In this document: piece by piece, positions 55,205 to 63,772 of the stretch | Numbering within the stretch: position 1 is the first letter of the stretch | Layout: the number at the start of each line of letters is the position of its first letter | Origin: Desulfoscipio sp. XC116 | Lineage (GTDB): Bacteria; Bacillota; Desulfotomaculia; Desulfotomaculales; Desulfallaceae | Direction: 5' to 3' | Assembly: GCF_039851975.1 (NCBI RefSeq) | Contig: NZ_CP156660.1 | Span: forward strand, 186,001-250,000 | Length of the DNA: 64,000 nucleotides | Position numbers and translations under genes: made by a program | The notes under the pieces: model-generated | Told to the model about the DNA's origin: nothing | What the model saw: the letters and a program-made list of their open reading frames with translations, nothing else | The model's database searches: none

Positions 55205-55381
55205 TTATTCAGTAACATAACCATAAACCGACCAACCGCCATCCACTACAATTGTCTGGCCGGTTATATAACTGGCATCATCTGAGGCCAGGAAAACCGC
55301 TACTTTAGCCACTTCATCAACATTACCCAGACGTCCCATGGGGCAGCGCCTGCTAAGTTTTGCTTGATTCGGGGTTCATCA
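55205..55381 (-). pseudogene. C-terminal remnant of a short-chain dehydrogenase (FabG-like)
   Basis: The frame reads [20 protein letters not shown] then [20 protein letters not shown] and ends at TAA 55205-55207. This is the typical SDR C terminus. Everything before about 55381 is missing; TGA codons precede it. It lies between the sigma-54 promoter and the 3-hydroxybutyryl-CoA dehydrogenase, so a first operon gene was deleted. Confidence 0.85.
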
Positions 55382-55445: not shown

Positions 55446-55461
55446 TGCAAATCAGATACCA
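55446..55461 (-). promoter_or_regulatory. Sigma-54 (-24/-12) promoter of the beta-oxidation operon
   Basis: Minus strand TGGTATCTGATTTGCA: GG at -24 and GC at -12 are exactly 10 nt apart as required. It points to the SDR remnant and the 3-hydroxybutyryl-CoA dehydrogenase start, about 260 bp downstream. A sigma-54 activator gene and a cluster of repeated sites lie just upstream. Confidence 0.72.
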
Positions 55462-55693: not shown

Positions 55694-55779
55694 AATTGGT
55701 GCAATTATGCACCAATTTTGTTTTGTTTCTGCACCATCTCATGCTAAACACTGAAATACCCTGGTTCATAATTGCACCA
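55694..55779. promoter_or_regulatory. Cluster of four TGCACCA sites, likely activator-binding region
   Basis: AATTGGTGCA (55694-55703) and TGCACCAATT (55708-55717) are perfect 10-bp inverted arms around ATTA. Further TGCACCA copies occur at 55730-55736 and 55773-55779. They lie about 235-335 bp upstream of the -24/-12 promoter, the usual distance for an enhancer of a Fis-type sigma-54 activator. Confidence 0.7.
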
Positions 55780-55787
55780 GGGTATCT
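55752..55787. repeat. Inverted repeat after the activator gene
   Basis: ATACCCTGGT and ACCAGGGTAT are perfect 10-bp arms around a 10-nt loop that contains a TGCACCA site. On the minus strand it follows the activator stop codon and may act as a terminator, though the T-run is poor. Confidence 0.5.
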
Positions 55788-57277
55788 CAGTAAACGTTAT
55801 GAAGTTTTATATTATATTTCCTTATTCGCCGTACAATGGTTGAGTGATCTACTTTTAAGGCACTTGCAGCTTTTCTGATGGTCCCGTATTTTTTAAGTGA
55901 TTGCAAAATCACTTGTTTTTCCAATTCTTCGATTGAATCTCTTAAACCTTTTTCTGTTAAACCATTCGCTTTGTGATAGTCCTCATCATTCTGATAAAAA
56001 ATGATGTGTTTGGGCAGACACTTGCTGCTTATTACTCTTTCCTCGTTGAATATTACCAGATTTTCAATGGTATTTTGCAGCTCGCGAACATTACCGGGCC
56101 AATTATAGTTTTCCAATGCATCACATACGTCGGAAGCAAAAATTTTATCTGTACAGTATTTCTTGTTGAAATTGTTTAAGAAATGGCTTGCTAAAGGGAC
56201 TATATCAGCCTTTCTATCCCTAAGACTGGGAATTGATATATTAACAACATGCAGACGATAGAAAAGATCTTTGCGAAAGGTGCCTGTTGCCACCATATCG
56301 GGCAAGTCTTTATGCGTTGCTGAGATTATCCGTACATCCAATCTAGTTGGTTTGACTCCCCCAAGGCGGTAAATTTCCTGGTTCTCAATGGCTCTTAATA
56401 ACTTAACTTGAAGGTTTAATGGCAAGTCGCCAATTTCATCCAAAAGAATTGTGCCTTTGTTGGCAACCTCCAACAGCCCCATTTTTCTGCTTTGAGCGCC
56501 GGAAAACGCCCCCTTTTCAAACCCAAATAATTCGGATTCCAATAGGCTCTCGGGTATGGCGCCACAATTAATCTGCACAAATGGTCCATCTTTTCTGCCG
56601 CTATACTTGTGTATTAACTTAGTCAAAACTTCCTTGCCTACACCGGACTCACCCGTCAAAAGTACATTTGCGTCCACTTGCGATACCTTGATTGCACTTT
56701 CCAGCACCTTCTTCATCTTATTGCTTCTAACGATGACGTCATCGGTTTCCAGCAGCTTATTGCGCAGTTCTTTTAGTTCCGCCAGGAATACCTCCGGAAG
56801 TTTGTTATGGGAATTATCGTCCACTATCTTCTTTAACTTATTTAATTCTCTCATTTCACGGTAATTGGCAATGTAGAATACCACGTTACCGTGGTTATCA
56901 TGCACAGGAACACTGGTGATAAATACTTCCACTCCTGTTTTTACTTTTTGGATAATTGATAAGGGATTTGTACCTAAAATTTTTCTTGAATTTGTAAGAA
57001 TCACTCCTTCTCTCAACATATCTTTGGTTGTTTTGCCAATTATCTGATCCATTGATATGCCGGAAATTCTCTCTACAGCTTTATTACCATAAAAAATCCG
57101 GCCTTGATGATCCGACAGCAGGTAACCGTCAAATGAGTAGTCCAATAAATAAAGCAGCAAATTCAATATTCCATTGAAATCATACCTGGAATTGGATGTA
57201 TCAGTTCCTGGCGTTGGATTGAACAAGTTGATGTTTTTACTAAGAATATTCTTAACTTTATGGTATTGGCTGGACAT
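55787..57277 (-). CDS. PAS-domain sigma-54-dependent transcriptional activator
   Basis: A 496-aa activator. An N-terminal PAS domain (about 40-150; LSDHQGRIFYGNKAVERISG) senses the signal. The AAA+ domain has Walker A TGESGVGKE, the sigma-54 contact loop GAFSGA (a Ser variant of GAFTGA), Walker B ILLDEIGDLPL and the arginine-finger region VRELQNTIENLV. A Fis-type HTH ends the protein (YGTIRKAASALKVDHSTIVR). I choose ATG 57277, six bases after AAAGGAG. It probably binds the TGCACCA cluster and activates the neighbouring -24/-12 promoters. Confidence 0.95.
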   Translation of the reverse strand: MSSQYHKVKNILSKNINLFNPTPGTDTSNSRYDFNGILNLLLYLLDYSFDGYLLSDHQGRIFYGNKAVERISGISMDQIIGKTTKDMLREGVILTNSRKILGTNPLSIIQKVKTGVEVFITSVPVHDNHGNVVFYIANYREMRELNKLKKIVDDNSHNKLPEVFLAELKELRNKLLETDDVIVRSNKMKKVLESAIKVSQVDANVLLTGESGVGKEVLTKLIHKYSGRKDGPFVQINCGAIPESLLESELFGFEKGAFSGAQSRKMGLLEVANKGTILLDEIGDLPLNLQVKLLRAIENQEIYRLGGVKPTRLDVRIISATHKDLPDMVATGTFRKDLFYRLHVVNISIPSLRDRKADIVPLASHFLNNFNKKYCTDKIFASDVCDALENYNWPGNVRELQNTIENLVIFNEERVISSKCLPKHIIFYQNDEDYHKANGLTEKGLRDSIEELEKQVILQSLKKYGTIRKAASALKVDHSTIVRRIRKYNIKLHNVY

Positions 57278-57542
57278 TATATGCTCCTTTATGGTCTTTA
57301 ACAAGCATAAATTCTACGCCTTTGCCAAATACACCTTTTTAGAAAAAGTATAAAAAGAGGATATTGCGGGGAGTATCAGAAATGTCTTGATATTTAAGCC
57401 ATCGGTACAAACCTTGCGATATTCAACTCTAAGTATTTAACCTTAGACAATCTTTTGCGGGAGGTTCTTAAGGAGTGATTTTTTATTAAACGGAATTTAC
57501 CGTAAGGTTTCAGGTTCAGCCTTATGAGAACTGATGTGCATG

Positions 57543-57746
57543 CATGATGGCACTACTTCGGCGGTGCCTATTTACGACCCCGCCACCCGTAAGATAATCG
57601 GTATTCCGGTAATGAGTGGAACTTGAGAAATGGTACACCGGCACACGCTGGGCGTGGTGATCGCAGCGGTTGATTCAATTGAAAAACAAATATCCGCCTG
57701 CGAATGGCTAGAACATCTGAAATTGCAAATCAGTATAAGAACTTGA
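57543..57746 (+). pseudogene. Remnant of an AcoR-type GAF-domain sigma-54 activator
   Basis: The frame reads GTTSAVPIYDPATRKIIGIP, a TGA, then RHTLGVVIAAVDSIEKQI. AcoR-like activators have SAAPIxDPxTGxxxGVLDxSG followed by HPHTLxLVxAAAxxIE in their N-terminal GAF domain, and the spacing matches. The AAA+ and HTH parts are absent. A second regulator once stood here. Confidence 0.65.
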
Positions 57747-58071: not shown

Positions 58072-59331
58072 TTAGTCAACTATAATCATGTCTTTCGTTT
58101 CTTTCATAAAGTATCCGAATATTGCACCTGTCGCATAGATCACGGATACTAACCCCAAAGCTAAACCCAGACTATACTGGCTGGCAATACCACCCATTAA
58201 AAAGGGAGCTAAGGCCGACATCATTCTGCCGCTGGCATAGGCAAAGGCGGTTCCGATACCACGTACACCGGTTGGAAATTGTTCAGCAACAAAGGCTGCC
58301 AGTGGTCCCCAATAGCCGTATGTTATAAAGCCAAATACCCCTGCCATCCACAATATTGCCGTTGGGCTGTTTAGGTTGATCCAGATCAACATAACAACTG
58401 CCGAGGCCAGGGATCCGAAGATAAAATTTGCCCGGCGTCCGAGTTTGTCTGCAAGAAATCCATAAAAATAATACCCAATAAAGCCTCCCACATTTAAAAT
58501 CATTAAATAACCGCTCATGTCTTTTAAATTTAGGCCCCGTTCTGTTGAAAGGTAGGCTGGAATCCACGATCCCGCTCCCCAGTAAGAAACCAGGCAGCTT
58601 GCGCAAAGTCCGAAAGCCAATAATGTGGTTTTCAGATTGGCTCCTTTGAGAAGATCAGTCCAGGTTGCTGCCTTAACATTAGTTTTGGAGATGGATTCTT
58701 TTCCTTCGGTTTTGTTGCTTTGTGCTTTTAACCAGGCTGGTGATTCGGGAACAAGTACAGCGATATACACTGCTGCAATCAAAGAAATGATTCCTGAAAA
58801 GAAAAGAATCTGCCAACCATAGGTTGGCACAAAGTAAGCATTCACTCCAAGAGCCAAAGCGTAGCCCAGTGGCCAACCGCTCTGCACTGCCGAAGTAGCA
58901 CGAGCCCTTTGTTCAGGAGGGAAGAATTCACTTACTAATGCCGCGCCAATAACCCATTCTCCTCCCAGCCCTATACCGGCTATAAATCTTAGGACGATTA
59001 ATTGTATATAATTTGTCGCAAATCCACACAAGAAGGTAAAAACACCAAACCAGATAAGGCACAAGATCAGCATTCTTTTGCGGCCAAACTTATCGATCAT
59101 TGGTCCCCAAAAATAACCGCTTAAGGCTGCGCCAAAAATGGTCGCTGTACCAATTAGCCCGGCACTGGCCAAACTAATGCCCCATGTTTTTACCAGCAAA
59201 GGGATCACCAGGGCCAAAACCATAAAGTCTTGAGCATCGAAAATATAGCCTAATATTGCACCAGTCAAGGCTTTATACTTATACTTAAAAGGATTAGCTA
59301 TTATTTTTTGGTTATAGTTTAACTCCGCCAT
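58072..59331 (-). CDS. MFS carboxylate:H+ symporter-type transporter (AAHS/MHS-like)
   Basis: A 419-aa, 12-helix transporter. The loop motif GPMIDKFGRKRMLIL, the long signature RFIAGIGLGGEWVIGAALVS with EFFPPEQRARATS, and the second-half FLADKLGRRANFIFG are typical of MFS importers for aromatic acids or other organic acids. It likely brings in the acid that the adjacent acyl-CoA synthetase activates. RBS GGGAGGAAATAAG before ATG. A 29-aa membrane microprotein gene lies 33 bp upstream in the same operon. Confidence 0.9.
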   Translation of the reverse strand: MAELNYNQKIIANPFKYKYKALTGAILGYIFDAQDFMVLALVIPLLVKTWGISLASAGLIGTATIFGAALSGYFWGPMIDKFGRKRMLILCLIWFGVFTFLCGFATNYIQLIVLRFIAGIGLGGEWVIGAALVSEFFPPEQRARATSAVQSGWPLGYALALGVNAYFVPTYGWQILFFSGIISLIAAVYIAVLVPESPAWLKAQSNKTEGKESISKTNVKAATWTDLLKGANLKTTLLAFGLCASCLVSYWGAGSWIPAYLSTERGLNLKDMSGYLMILNVGGFIGYYFYGFLADKLGRRANFIFGSLASAVVMLIWINLNSPTAILWMAGVFGFITYGYWGPLAAFVAEQFPTGVRGIGTAFAYASGRMMSALAPFLMGGIASQYSLGLALGLVSVIYATGAIFGYFMKETKDMIIVD

Positions 59332-59364: not shown

Positions 59365-59454
59365 TTACTTGAACCGTCCTAATACAAATTTCTTCACTGC
59401 AAAATAAAGTCCAATATATAAAGTAAGGATCAGTATCTGTTTCCATCCCTCCAT
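59365..59454 (-). CDS. 29-aa single-span membrane microprotein
   Basis: ATG 59454 opens a 29-codon frame: a short head MEGWKQ, one hydrophobic helix (ILILTLYIGLYFAV) and a basic tail KKFVLGRFK, giving a clear positive-inside orientation. GAAGGG lies 5 nt upstream and AAGGAGG a little further. It sits between the SDR gene and the MFS gene on the same strand, 33 bp before the MFS start. Short one-helix subunits are known for several secondary transporters, so a role as small partner of the MFS carrier is plausible. It is too short for ordinary gene callers. Confidence 0.62.
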   Translation of the reverse strand: MEGWKQILILTLYIGLYFAVKKFVLGRFK

Positions 59455-59541: not shown

Positions 59542-60321
59542 TCAAACAGCCAATAATCCACCGTCAATACTTAGGGTAATTCCGGTGCAATAACTTGATC
59601 CTGGGGAAGCAAGGAATAATACTCCGGTCTTTAATTCATCCTCACTGCCCAAACGGTGCATGGGAATTAAGTTTTGAGTAAGCTCTTCATGGTACTCTTT
59701 GTTTCCGTCACTTAATTGAGATGGGAACCAGCCCGGAGCTATGGCATTTACGGTTATATTGTATTTAACCCATTTTATCGCTAAATCTCTGGTTAAACCG
59801 AGCAGAGCGGCCTTGCTCACCGGATAAGCCACAGCATCCATATATTTAGCGTAAGTTCCCACAAAAGCTAAATAGGAAGCTATGTTGATAATTCGCCCGT
59901 AGTTCTGTTTGGACATGATTTGACCGGCTTTTTGGGCCATAAGCCACGCACCGGTCAAATTAGTTTCAATAACCTTATTCCAGCCGCTTAATGGAAGTTC
60001 AAAGGTTGGAGCACCCCAGGTGGTTCCTGAATTGTTAATAAGGATATCAACTCTGCCAAACTCTTTCATGACCAGATCATATAGATCATCGATCATTTGA
60101 GGCTTTCTTAAATCCAGGGCAACGGGAAGCATGCGTACTCCCAGTTCCTTCGCCATCTGCATAGCAGCCTCTTGGCAACGCCCTAAATTTCGAGCTGCAA
60201 TAACCAAATTAGCTCCGGCTTCTCCCAGGGCGTAGGCCATTTGCCTGCCGATTCCTGTTGCTCCTCCGGTTACGACGGCCACCTGACCTGTTAGGTCCAA
60301 TAGTTCTCTAATATGTCTCAC
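59542..60321 (-). CDS. SDR-family oxidoreductase
   Basis: A 259-aa classical SDR. NAD(P) motif TGGATGIGRQMAYALGEAG, NNSGTTWG, catalytic Ser in INIASYLAFVG, YPVSK with Tyr and Lys, and the end SSYCTGITLSIDGGLLAV. It probably oxidises a 3-hydroxyacyl-CoA or a cyclic alcohol intermediate. It is first in the operon SDR, microprotein, MFS, downstream of a near-consensus sigma-54 promoter at 60481-60496. Confidence 0.93.
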   Translation of the reverse strand: MRHIRELLDLTGQVAVVTGGATGIGRQMAYALGEAGANLVIAARNLGRCQEAAMQMAKELGVRMLPVALDLRKPQMIDDLYDLVMKEFGRVDILINNSGTTWGAPTFELPLSGWNKVIETNLTGAWLMAQKAGQIMSKQNYGRIINIASYLAFVGTYAKYMDAVAYPVSKAALLGLTRDLAIKWVKYNITVNAIAPGWFPSQLSDGNKEYHEELTQNLIPMHRLGSEDELKTGVLFLASPGSSYCTGITLSIDGGLLAV

Positions 60322-60480
60322 GTAATCTTTCCCTCTCTGTAATTTAGTTAAGGCATGAATCTGATAGTTCCCTTACCTGTGATAATGCTTAACGATTTGC
60401 GTCACCCTCTTCAATGCCCGTTCATTTTATCAAACTCCTTTCCGTTAAACTAATTGGAATATTCGGATATTTTTAACTAT

Positions 60481-60496
60481 TGCAATCTTTGTGCCA
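60481..60496 (-). promoter_or_regulatory. Sigma-54 promoter of the SDR/microprotein/MFS operon
   Basis: Minus strand TGGCACAAAGATTGCA matches the consensus TGGCAC-N5-TTGCA at every fixed position. It lies 160 bp upstream of the SDR start. Confidence 0.83.
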
Positions 60497-60560
60497 AAGG
60501 TAATTTACATTTAACATGCAGGGGATTAAGTGGTCATGGTTTTGTTGGATACGCATCGTC

Positions 60561-60576
60561 TGGCAATATATTTGCA
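60561..60576 (+). promoter_or_regulatory. Sigma-54 promoter facing the acyl-CoA synthetase
   Basis: Plus strand TGGCAATATATTTGCA keeps GG and GC exactly 10 nt apart and differs from consensus by one base. It points right, 250 bp upstream of the synthetase, and is 64 bp from the divergent promoter on the other strand. Confidence 0.68.
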
Positions 60577-60652
60577 ATTAACCGTAGAAATATAGTAATT
60601 CGGATTATAATAAATCAATTTAAAACCTTCCCACTATTACGAATTGTATAAA

Positions 60653-60751
60653 TCGCTGTCTACAACAGAAATTAATAATTTTTTAGAGGAAAGTAAAAAA
60701 CTGGGTGATCTCCAAATACCGGTGGAATGCATGTTTGTTGATGCGATCTAG
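60653..60751 (+). pseudogene. Short remnant frame in the synthetase leader
   Basis: Thirty-two codons, SLSTTEINNFLEESKKLGDL then QIPVECMFVDAI and TAG, without RBS. It looks like a scrap of a real protein, possibly from a transposase or another enzyme, but I cannot name it. Confidence 0.3.
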
Positions 60752-60825
60752 AGTTACCACATGCAAACTATTAAAGAAGAGAATTAACAAAACATTTAAA
60801 TAATAGTTTAAGGGGGGAATGTGTT

Positions 60826-62418
60826 TTGAAAAAAATATGGTTTGAAAATTATCTTTCGGACACAAGGCATGAATTGACTTATCCCGAAATCCCAGTTTTT
60901 CAGTTTTTAACTGACAGTGCCCTGGAGTTTCCAGAGAACGATGCCATTATCTTTGCAGACAAGCATACTTCTTTTGGTGAGCTTGATTTGTACACCAATC
61001 GTTTTGCCAGATTTTTGCAGGATAACGGAGTGCAAAAAGGAGACCGGGTGGCCATATTGGCGCCTAATTGCCACCAGAATGTGATTAGCTTTTTTGGAGC
61101 GCTGAAGATTGGTGCCGTTGTGGTGCAGAATAACCCGATGTATGTGGAAAGGGAACTGGAACACCAGTTAAATGACTCGGGCAGCGAAACACTGGTTTGT
61201 TTGGCTGATCTTTATCCAAAAATTAAGAACATCCGCTCAAACGTCAATCTGAAAAACATTATTACTTTCAATATAGACGACTCTCCTGTCTTAACCGGTG
61301 ATGATACAGTTGATTTGCAGACAATACTTAGCAGCTGCAGTTCCGACTACCGGCAGGAATTAGTTGGCCCCGGCGACCTGGCGCTGTTGCAGTATACCGG
61401 CGGTACTACGGGAGTGTCTAAAGGATGTATGTTGACACATCGTAATCTTGTGGCTAATGTACTGCAAACCGCTGAGGTTCTTGGTAAAAACTATCGTCGC
61501 TGGAACGATTATGTTATTGGAGTCCTACCGCTTTTCCATGTGTACGGTCTTACCTGCATTATGAACATGTCTGTTTACATGGGGGTAACAATGATTTTGT
61601 TTCCGCGTTTTGATCCCAAGACAGTTATTGAAGCTATTGACGGCTATAAAGTTGGTGTATTCTTTGCTAGTCCTACAATGCTTATCGCAATCAATAGTTA
61701 TAAGGAAATAGGCAACTACAATTTGCGTTGCCTTCATACTTGCATTAGTGGTTCAGCCCCTCTGCCCAACGAAGTGAAAGAAGCATTCTTTAAACTGACC
61801 GGAGTGGAAGTGGTCGAGGGCTATGGTTTGTCTGAAGCATCCCCGGTTACGCATAGCAACCCTGTGAATGGAAAAGTTAAGATTGGCAGCATTGGTCTGC
61901 CCATACCGGATACGGATATGAGAATTGTTGACATTAATACAGGTGGGGAATGCTCGGCTAAGCAAACCGGGGAATTGTGGGTTAGAGGTCCACAGGTTAT
62001 GAGCAGCTATTGGAACCGTCCGGATGAAACCGCCAATGTTCTGGAAAACGGCTGGCTCAAAACCGGTGATGTTGTCGAAGTCGATGAAGAAGGTTATGTT
62101 TATATCGTCAGCAGAAAAAAGGATGTAATCATTGCCAGTGGATACAATATTTATCCGGTTGAAGTGGAAGATGTTTTATTTGCCCATCCCAAAGTTCAAG
62201 AGGCGGTGGTGATCGGTATACCCGATGCATACCGGGGAGAATCAGTTAAAGCGGTTATCGTGCTAAAGGATGGGGAAAATGCTACGCCGGAAGAGGTTAT
62301 TGCCTATTGCCGCACCAAGCTTGCCGCGTATAAAGTGCCGCGCCAGGTGGAATTTAGAGATGTATTGCCCAAATCGGCGGTAGGTAAAATATTGCGCCGT
62401 GTTTTGCGGGAGGGATAA
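60826..62418 (+). CDS. Acyl-CoA synthetase (AMP-forming)
   Basis: A 530-aa ligase. P-loop LLQYTGGTTGVSKGCMLTHR near 185, GYGLSEASPVTHSNP near 335, GELWVRGPQVMSSYWN, GWLKTGDVVEVDEEGYVYIV near 415, and the catalytic Lys in KSAVGKILRRVL at the end. It adenylates a carboxylic acid and forms the CoA thioester, feeding the neighbouring beta-oxidation genes. TTG 60826 is the start, with AAGGGGGGAA nine bases upstream. Acid chain length cannot be told from sequence alone. Confidence 0.95.
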   Translation: MKKIWFENYLSDTRHELTYPEIPVFQFLTDSALEFPENDAIIFADKHTSFGELDLYTNRFARFLQDNGVQKGDRVAILAPNCHQNVISFFGALKIGAVVVQNNPMYVERELEHQLNDSGSETLVCLADLYPKIKNIRSNVNLKNIITFNIDDSPVLTGDDTVDLQTILSSCSSDYRQELVGPGDLALLQYTGGTTGVSKGCMLTHRNLVANVLQTAEVLGKNYRRWNDYVIGVLPLFHVYGLTCIMNMSVYMGVTMILFPRFDPKTVIEAIDGYKVGVFFASPTMLIAINSYKEIGNYNLRCLHTCISGSAPLPNEVKEAFFKLTGVEVVEGYGLSEASPVTHSNPVNGKVKIGSIGLPIPDTDMRIVDINTGGECSAKQTGELWVRGPQVMSSYWNRPDETANVLENGWLKTGDVVEVDEEGYVYIVSRKKDVIIASGYNIYPVEVEDVLFAHPKVQEAVVIGIPDAYRGESVKAVIVLKDGENATPEEVIAYCRTKLAAYKVPRQVEFRDVLPKSAVGKILRRVLREG

Positions 62419-62701: not shown

Positions 62702-63772
62702 TTATTCGTTTTCCTCAATCAGCGCTCTAGCCGCAGTCAGTGCCAGCACCTCGTTGGAACCATCCTCAATTAGTGCTGCCCGGGCGTCTCTCAGCAGTTT
62801 TTCAATGTGATATTCCTTACTCACCCCGTAGCCACCAAACAACTGGACCGCTTCGTTGGCGACTTCAAAGGCTGCATTGGTGCAATATACTTTGGATAAT
62901 ATAGAGTATCGGGTTACTGGCGGAAAGTTGGTGAAATTGTAATTCATCACCGCCCGAGAGACAGCGCGGGCTGTCTCTACCTTTTGGAACATATCAAAAA
63001 GCTTTTTTTGTACCAGTTGATGCTCACATAGAAGCTTGCCACCTTGCACCCTTACTTTGGAATAAGCTAACGCCTCTTCAAAGGCTGCCCTGGCTACGCC
63101 GGTAAACATGGCCCCCATGGTAGCGTTGGCAATGGCCAGTGTGGCGTCCAGCATAGTTTCGTAAGTATCGGGTTGGGACAGCATAAAATGCTTGGGCAAC
63201 CGCACATTATCAAAGTAAATCTCTCCCTGGGGCAGTTCCCGCTGGCCCATTTTGTCCAGGCATTTGCCTTTGGAAACGCCTGGTAAGTCCAAAGGTGCCA
63301 CGGCCACACCGCCGCCGGCCAGCCCCATAGATTTTTCAATATTTAAAAAGAGAAGGGCATGGGTGGCCTGCGGTCCGTTGGAAACCCAGGATGATTTTTG
63401 CCCGTTCAAAACCCAAACGTCCCCGTCCTGCCGGGCCGAAAGCTGACCGGTTATTTGGGGGTCCTTAAACCATGGCATGCCCACGGTGAGCTGGTCGGAG
63501 CCGTGGTTAGGCTCGGTGATGGCCCAGCAGCCGATGAAACTGTTGTCGGTTTTCTCTACAAAGGGTTTAATAACCTCATCGATTACCTTATCTTCATCAT
63601 CGGGAGCCATTGATGCGAAGAAGGCCGGAAAACAATCCACCCCAATGGATACAGCAAAACCGGCGCTTCCCCAGCCTATTTCCTCCCAAAATATATGAGC
63701 TTCCAGCGGGGAGAGCCCCAATCCGCCGTTGGAAACTAAAACTAGCTGTTCGGATACAAGTATTCCCGCCAC
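62702..63772 (-). pseudogene. 5'-truncated acyl-CoA dehydrogenase
   Basis: About 340 residues of acyl-CoA dehydrogenase follow GGLGLSPLEAHIFWEEIGWG. Seen: ITEPNHGSDQLTVG, LNGQKSSWVSNGPQATHAL, MGQRELPQGEIYFDNVRLPK and FGGYGVSKEYHIEKLLRDAR. About 60 N-terminal residues expected in the family are missing, and the 14 residues before GGLG (AGILVSEQLVLVSN) do not fit. The frame's GTG at 63772 has no RBS. DNA to the right reads open on the plus strand, so a rearrangement at about 63730-63745 removed the gene's start. The catalytic motif is also unusual: IEDGSNEV in place of YEGTNEI. Confidence 0.78.

Follow-up and report, generated by a model that had tools for sequence, protein, structure and literature searches.

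Two divergent sigma-54 promoters of Desulfoscipio sp. XC116 probably meet at a rearrangement junction that cut each from its adjacent activator gene

Background

Sigma-54 promoters are considered to depend on EBPs. In Clostridiales, as described by Nie et al. 2019 (PMC6615313), many EBPs use a TGT-N10-12-ACA motif located 100-250 bp upstream, EBP genes adjoin their targets, and these targets include butyrate/acyl-CoA-type operons. Work on Desulfovibrio vulgaris orp1/orp2 (PMC3897727) describes a single EBP that serves both divergent operons through palindromic sites with the help of IHF. After fleQ deletion in Pseudomonas fluorescens, highly expressed or activated relatives can replace an EBP, according to PMC10482368. 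Sigma-54 binding sites that lack an EBP in their neighbourhood may in some cases be idle (PMC4591121).

The locus described here lies in a 64,000-nucleotide stretch of the Desulfoscipio sp. XC116 genome (the window) and encompasses two divergent sigma-54 elements between an SDR/microprotein/MFS operon and an acyl-CoA synthetase gene. It shares with the Clostridiales systems of PMC6615313 the consensus, the element spacing and EBP targets of the butyrate/acyl-CoA type, and the Clostridiales enhancer type and EBP adjacency recur in some relatives of the locus. Unlike those systems, the two window promoters lack recognised enhancers as well as cognate EBPs encoded next to them, the comparison of enhancers resting on the TGT-N10-12-ACA motif. 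Two divergent sigma-54 promoters are also found at orp1/orp2 (PMC3897727), but the two sides of the window pair appear to derive from two EBP systems and those of orp are served by one EBP. The P. fluorescens case (PMC10482368) likewise involves sigma-54 promoters without their cognate EBP and a possible take-over; it arose under laboratory selection, whereas the window would be a natural case with a putative take-over. For the topics searched in an open-access library, the listings showed neither a paper treating this locus nor one describing GATGC arrays as EBP sites.

Results

Both elements displayed the -24 GG and -12 GC at standard spacing. Relative to TGGCAC-N5-TTGCW, the minus element TGGCACAAAGATTGCA had no mismatch and the plus element TGGCAATATATTTGCA had one. 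They point apart across a gap of 64 bp (60497-60560), at distances of 160 nt (SDR) and 250 nt (synthetase) from the start codons (Table 1). Sites and gene calls thus agree with the first-pass annotation, which had described a full-consensus minus and a nearly consensus plus element facing these same genes. Only one other position of the window, 8063, matched with 0-1 mismatch. Matches with up to two mismatches can be ascribed to chance, since 27 were found against 33.4 expected.

A 16-site matrix, built from all TGGCAY sites of the genome outside ORFs of at least 100 aa and excluding the window, ranked the minus element first (16.5) and the plus element third (15.4) across the whole window, with site 28456 (15.7) in second place. 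When four of the nine further TGGCAA/G sites outside such ORFs and outside the window were added (20-site matrix, omitting 2692548, 1373153, 3161469, 3899933 and the repeat copy 3591313), the plus element ranked first and the minus element second. Simulated copies of the 329-nt region held an equally good plus-strand site in about 0.1% of cases. Leave-one-out scores of the 16 training sites ranged from 6.4 to 23.7, three being below 16.5 and two below 15.4. By these scores, both elements appear to be credible sigma-54 promoters, on the weak side for this genome because few training sites score lower.

Table 1. Features around the promoter pair (window coordinates)
Feature	Position	Strand	Remark
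Nearest remaining EBP gene, PAS-AAA-HTH_50	55787..57304	-	
Two TGGTnCA-N4-TGCACCA dyads beside the EBP gene	55697..55714, 55762..55779		upstream of HBDH/crotonase operon
MFS transporter	58072..59331	-	nearest model: aromatic acid/H+ symport, below curated cut-off
29-aa microprotein MEGWKQILILTLYIGLYFAVKKFVLGRFK, ahead of MFS gene	59365..59454	-	
SDR dehydrogenase	59542..60321	-	91% in D. palustris
Sigma-54 (-24/-12) promoter of SDR-microprotein-MFS operon	60481..60496	-	TGGCACAAAGATTGCA
Approximate junction of the two segments	60505..60520	.	meeting point near 60510-60516
Promoter and leader of former ACS-A/ACS-B operon	60512..60657	+	alignment to G009/G012
Sigma-54 promoter toward acyl-CoA synthetase	60561..60576	+	TGGCAATATATTTGCA
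Decayed 3' stub of ACS-A	60648..60805	+	aligns to ACS-A residues 464-498
Acyl-CoA synthetase ACS-B	60826..62418	+	92% D. palustris, 85% G009, 84% G012

The genome contained 26 matches to TGGCAY-N5-TTGCW (4 for the reversed control) and 50 to the TGGCAN version (12 for the control). Sites outside ORFs of at least 100 aa accounted for 17 of 26 TGGCAY, 5 of 12 TGGCAA and 5 of 12 TGGCAG matches. A single copy of rpoN was present, along with 35 Sigma54_activat matches, 30 of them above 210 bits and five at 31-49 bits, these five probably corresponding to other AAA proteins. Neighbours less than 1 kb apart among the 50 genome matches formed two pairs only, both divergent (the 60481/60561 elements and 169320/169600); about 0.013 divergent pairs within 100 bp were expected. 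The second pair (169320-169615; L066:11321-11616) lies between an HBDH side and an acyl-CoA synthetase. Between its elements a perfect inverted repeat with arms of more than 20 nt, containing GGCGTTCAATTAATTAAC, was observed, and none of the other 252 loci fetched contained it.

The reading frames of the SDR, MFS, microprotein and ACS-B genes were all open. The microprotein, which probably forms one membrane helix, was encoded directly before the MFS gene in 3 of 19 loci (L116, 90%; L131, 65%; L133, 44%). The nearest remaining EBP would be a candidate activator. The dyads beside its gene have a weak sigma-54-like site downstream of them, at 55446, and a looser TGGTnCA/TGCACCA pattern had one further genome match, at 1634703. 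As the first-pass annotation had noted, no TGCACCA was present near the pair (none in 60322-60825), and a dyad of the TGCACCA type came no closer than in shuffles. A TGGTGCA dyad near the promoters was rejected as well, the best match having 6 mismatches, as in shuffles. Three further remnants or partial genes were observed in the vicinity: a GAF-type EBP remnant (57528-57743, plus strand), a remnant of an SDR C-terminus, judged by residues (55205-55339, minus strand), and an acyl-CoA dehydrogenase ORF (62702-63772, minus strand) with Pfam matches for the middle and C-terminal domains only.

The first-pass annotation had also considered a different activator site, to be sought as conserved dyads in 60322-60825. 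No close dyad with G/C-bearing arms was found in that segment (arms 6-10, gap at most 14, more than two G/C per arm), and what it did contain was an imperfect 17-nt palindrome (60444-60477) just downstream of the minus element, largely conserved in Desulfocucumis palustris with its core AATTGGAATATTCGGATATTT kept. An 8-nt repeat, ATTCGGAT, occurs downstream of each element (60461-60468 and 60598-60605). Palindrome and repeat could be a site of an unrecognised regulator.

A scan of named genomes yielded 78 loci with an SDR relative, two of them close (D. palustris, 91%, and Desulfosporosinus sp. PR, 89%). In D. palustris, window positions 60200-60514 aligned at 87% identity with an identical minus 16-mer, and homology resumed only at 60785. 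Gene order in this genome was MFS-SDR, a gene on the other strand for a 652-aa EBP with GAF-PAS-AAA-HTH_8 domains, and the acyl-CoA synthetase (92%). The best match of this EBP in the Desulfoscipio genome reached 43% only. The loss of an AcoR-like regulator, suspected in the first-pass annotation, is consistent with this arrangement: the GAF-PAS-AAA-HTH protein, which we take to be AcoR-like, sits between SDR and synthetase in D. palustris and is missing here. The GAF remnant at 57528-57743 was rejected as the lost regulator, being 35-48% identical to the EBP group and in the wrong place.

Desulfosporosinus sp. PR carries the same EBP (90%), encoded upstream of the SDR gene with one ORF between them (L117). 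The counterpart of the minus site in this genome, TGGCATGACAATTGCA, kept 12 of 16 bases including all key bases, which is weak evidence of constraint because its flanks were also 79% identical (33/42). Full-length EBP homologues (51-58%) were found in three Syntrophomonas loci (L118, L123 and L131). The EBP or a full-length homologue was present at 5 of 19 SDR loci, counted within flanks of at most 8 kb, several of them shorter; L127 showed a partial match (45%) ending at the locus edge and L122 a 34% match. Neighbourhoods were viewed for 39 of 98 loci, leaving aside L134-L165 and L167-L193 (59 loci, all at most 51% identical).

Scans of chosen stretches of these loci revealed paired TGT-N11-ACA motifs, 34-35 bp apart, in L116 (5646/5680), L117 (4215/4250 and 7702/7737) and L118 (5568/5603), L116 and L117 being close relatives and so not independent. 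Downstream of the L117 7702/7737 and L118 pairs, a sigma-54 site follows at about 130-235 bp, in agreement with both the motif (TGT-N10-12-ACA) and the distance (100-250 bp) given for many Clostridiales EBPs in PMC6615313. The motif pair is probably a candidate enhancer for the GAF-PAS EBP. The pairing of EBP and motif is weak, because the D. palustris pair is on the synthetase side, about 2.1 kb from the SDR promoter, and no pair was present in the stretches examined of L123 and L131, both of which bear the EBP. No TGT-N10-12-ACA was found in window 60322-60825, an absence that says little alone since only 0.5 would be expected by chance in 504 nt. The lost TGT-N11-ACA sequence was not recovered elsewhere in the genome either (10 matches at 3 mismatches against 11 for the control). 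In Desulfosporosinus sp. PR, the stretch L117:7693-7899 upstream of the SDR promoter contained pieces matching the tail and interior of the EBP together with the second copy of the motif pair, as if an EBP fragment had been duplicated.

On the synthetase side, an 801-base search of 113 genomes of the order matched four of them (own genome, G076, G009 and G012). Matches covered window 60680-60997 in G009 (72%) and 60648-60998 in G012 (71%), where a tandem synthetase gene, ACS-A, precedes the ACS-B orthologue and homology runs on into ACS-B. A synthetase of at least 76% identity was encoded in six other genomes among 120 searched. Five of these (G009, G012, G010, G044 and G013) harbored the order EBP-A, sigma-54 site, ACS-A, ACS-B, with an acyl-CoA dehydrogenase gene between ACS-A and ACS-B in G013 only. 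The sixth, D. palustris, had no ACS-A and no detectable G009-like promoter.

The window leader aligned with that of G009 over 121 columns at 64%, and with that of G012 in a 24-nt block over the element (79%) and a 52-nt block (75%). All 10 key bases of the plus element were kept in G009 at a flank identity of 65/102 (64%), for which the chance, given flank identity alone, is about 1%. At the sixth position, G009, G012, G044, G013 and the window all carried A or G instead of the consensus base. Judged by these alignments, the plus element is orthologous to the ACS-A/ACS-B operon promoter of the relatives. The counterpart site in G010 was weak (TGGTATTGGACTTGCA).

Between the leader and ACS-B lie the last ~50 codons of ACS-A, with a stop (33 residues aligned at 48% identity, with E ~1e-7 against a small set of references). 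The leader jumps into this ACS-A end at AAATyGC, and G009 has AAATCGC in its leader and AAATTGC in ACS-A. Direct repeats of at least 8 were absent inside 60600-60700, and a plasmid collection gave no match to 60497-60826. An ORF stub in this area (60614-60748) had been considered as an EBP N-terminus from its position and a faint likeness. It was rejected and attributed to the ACS-A 3' end: profile searches gave E of 3.4 and 13 when run across the window and 0.12 when restricted to the scar, its 1.4 bits were exceeded by 3 of 300 shuffles, and pairwise scores were no better than those of shuffles.

The ACS promoters of the relatives displayed an array of GATGC units starting at 0/5/15/26 (27 in G010), located 62-74 bp upstream of the -24 element, and a second GATGC pair, 10 bp apart, between promoter and start codon. 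Array and pair were present in all six ACS promoters, those of the five relatives and that of the genome's own ACS paralogue near 2519717-2519747 (L092:3518-3548). The paralogue promoter kept the same element order as the relatives; outside the start region, its upstream DNA could not be aligned convincingly with the window. Among all fetched loci, four GATGC within 45 bp occurred elsewhere only in L140 and L178 (L253 being the paralogue again). In all five relatives, the EBP encoded beside the array contained AAA, HTH_50 and a pair of CBS stretches, with a PAS domain clear in G009 and weak in some others. This CBS-domain EBP probably binds the GATGC array. Direct repeats are unusual for EBP enhancers.

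An EBP-A orthologue was encoded in the genome itself at 3.37 Mb, 59-73% identical to those of the five relatives with a nearly identical helix, and adjoining an ACS-A-like gene (61%). Its locus (L260) lacked four complete units; on reading, it displayed the same array with GATGT in place of one unit, together with three downstream GATGC copies and a sigma-54-like site (TGGCTAAAGTTTTGCT) that is weak. Nowhere in the window did GATGC form a cluster (four within 45 bp), the only copies near the elements being single ones at 60553 and 60740. The SDR promoter segment occupies roughly the expected place of the array.

DNA homologous to the D. palustris SDR promoter thus extends from the left to 60514, where the match ends, and DNA homologous to the G009/G012 ACS promoter begins at about 60512.

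Discussion

At the promoter pair, a rearrangement probably joined two sigma-54 units that had once been independent, cutting each from its enhancer and its adjacent EBP gene. Site matches, homologies and missing genes and motifs were read directly from the genomes compared; the order of events, the pairing of each EBP with a motif and the present activity are what we infer from them. The minus unit (MFS-microprotein-SDR) would once have been served by the adjacent GAF-PAS EBP, probably through paired TGT-N11-ACA. The plus unit would be the ACS-A/ACS-B operon promoter, served by the CBS-domain HTH_50 EBP, which probably bound the upstream GATGC array and the second GATGC pair downstream of the promoter. 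The join near 60510-60516 may have deleted the upstream DNA of both promoters, including both EBP genes and the GATGC array. A second deletion at the short shared AAATyGC would have taken ACS-A along with the second GATGC pair, so that 250 nt of leader now precede ACS-B. The simplest history would start from an ancestor in which the two units were close together. D. palustris would then have lost ACS-A and the plus promoter. In the window lineage, the GAF EBP would have disappeared, as would the CBS EBP and its array, and most of ACS-A would have gone in a separate event. An intermediate with both units side by side was not seen in the relatives, including D. palustris, the closest to both halves.

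One might suppose that the plus element matches by chance and that the minus promoter is the only real one, as the plus element deviates at one consensus position and 7 of 12 genome TGGCAA sites are inside ORFs of at least 100 aa. This is very improbable given its rank of 1 or 3 in the window, a simulated chance of about 0.1% or less, and its orthology to the G009/G012 promoter, where the same position deviates. Less remote, yet still rather unlikely, is activation of both promoters by one EBP from a shared unrecognised site in or near the 64-bp gap, in the manner of orp. A second divergent pair in the genome (169320/169600, HBDH versus synthetase) and the precedent of DVU2106 and the orp operons (PMC3897727) speak for it, as do the palindrome and the ATTCGGAT copies on both sides, which otherwise lack an explanation. 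Against it, 60322-60825 offered neither a close dyad of the kind described above nor any TGT-N10-12-ACA, GATGC cluster or TGCACCA dyad. The relatives, moreover, pair the two promoters with different EBPs, which adjoin them, and with different candidate enhancer motifs, so that the common activator implied by the first-pass annotation was not supported.

That the promoters are non-functional leftovers, with operons silent or read from other promoters, deserves somewhat more weight while staying doubtful. Both neighbouring EBP genes and the recognised enhancers are lost, ACS-A is destroyed, more gene remnants lie nearby (57528-57743 and 55205-55339) and both elements are on the weak side among the genome's own sites. 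Yet both sites retain their key bases, with the plus flank having diverged to 64%, the four reading frames remain open, and sigma-70-like sites occur at close to the chance rate (4 found, 2.4 expected). Rewired or weak activity would be ranked higher than silence, given that neither the two elements nor the reading frames are disrupted.

Under the rearrangement reading, both elements should remain binding sites for RNA polymerase-sigma54 but have no recognised enhancer in their vicinity. Each promoter would most likely be weakly or conditionally activated by an EBP in trans, or be near silent. The GATGC EBP orthologue at 3.37 Mb would be a trans candidate for the plus site. For the minus site, the candidates would be the EBP encoded at 55787-57304 and the remainder of the 30. 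Such rewiring is possible because EBPs can be replaced by relatives under selection, as PMC10482368 indicates.

The locus combines two intact promoters without neighbouring EBP genes or recognisable enhancer motifs, and the full array is retained at a paralogue promoter of this genome; locus and intact paralogue thus provide a built-in comparison for the natural decay or rewiring of sigma-54 circuits. In the relatives, GATGC units in strict phasing go together with a CBS-domain EBP and with acyl-CoA synthetases, a regulatory system that is directly testable. Only tentatively can it be proposed that the fused promoters of two EBP circuits, both of whose cognate enhancers were lost, are now driven together by a non-cognate EBP. 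If this were true, uptake and activation of an acid would have become one regulon through rearrangement, a natural case of enhancer loss and take-over.
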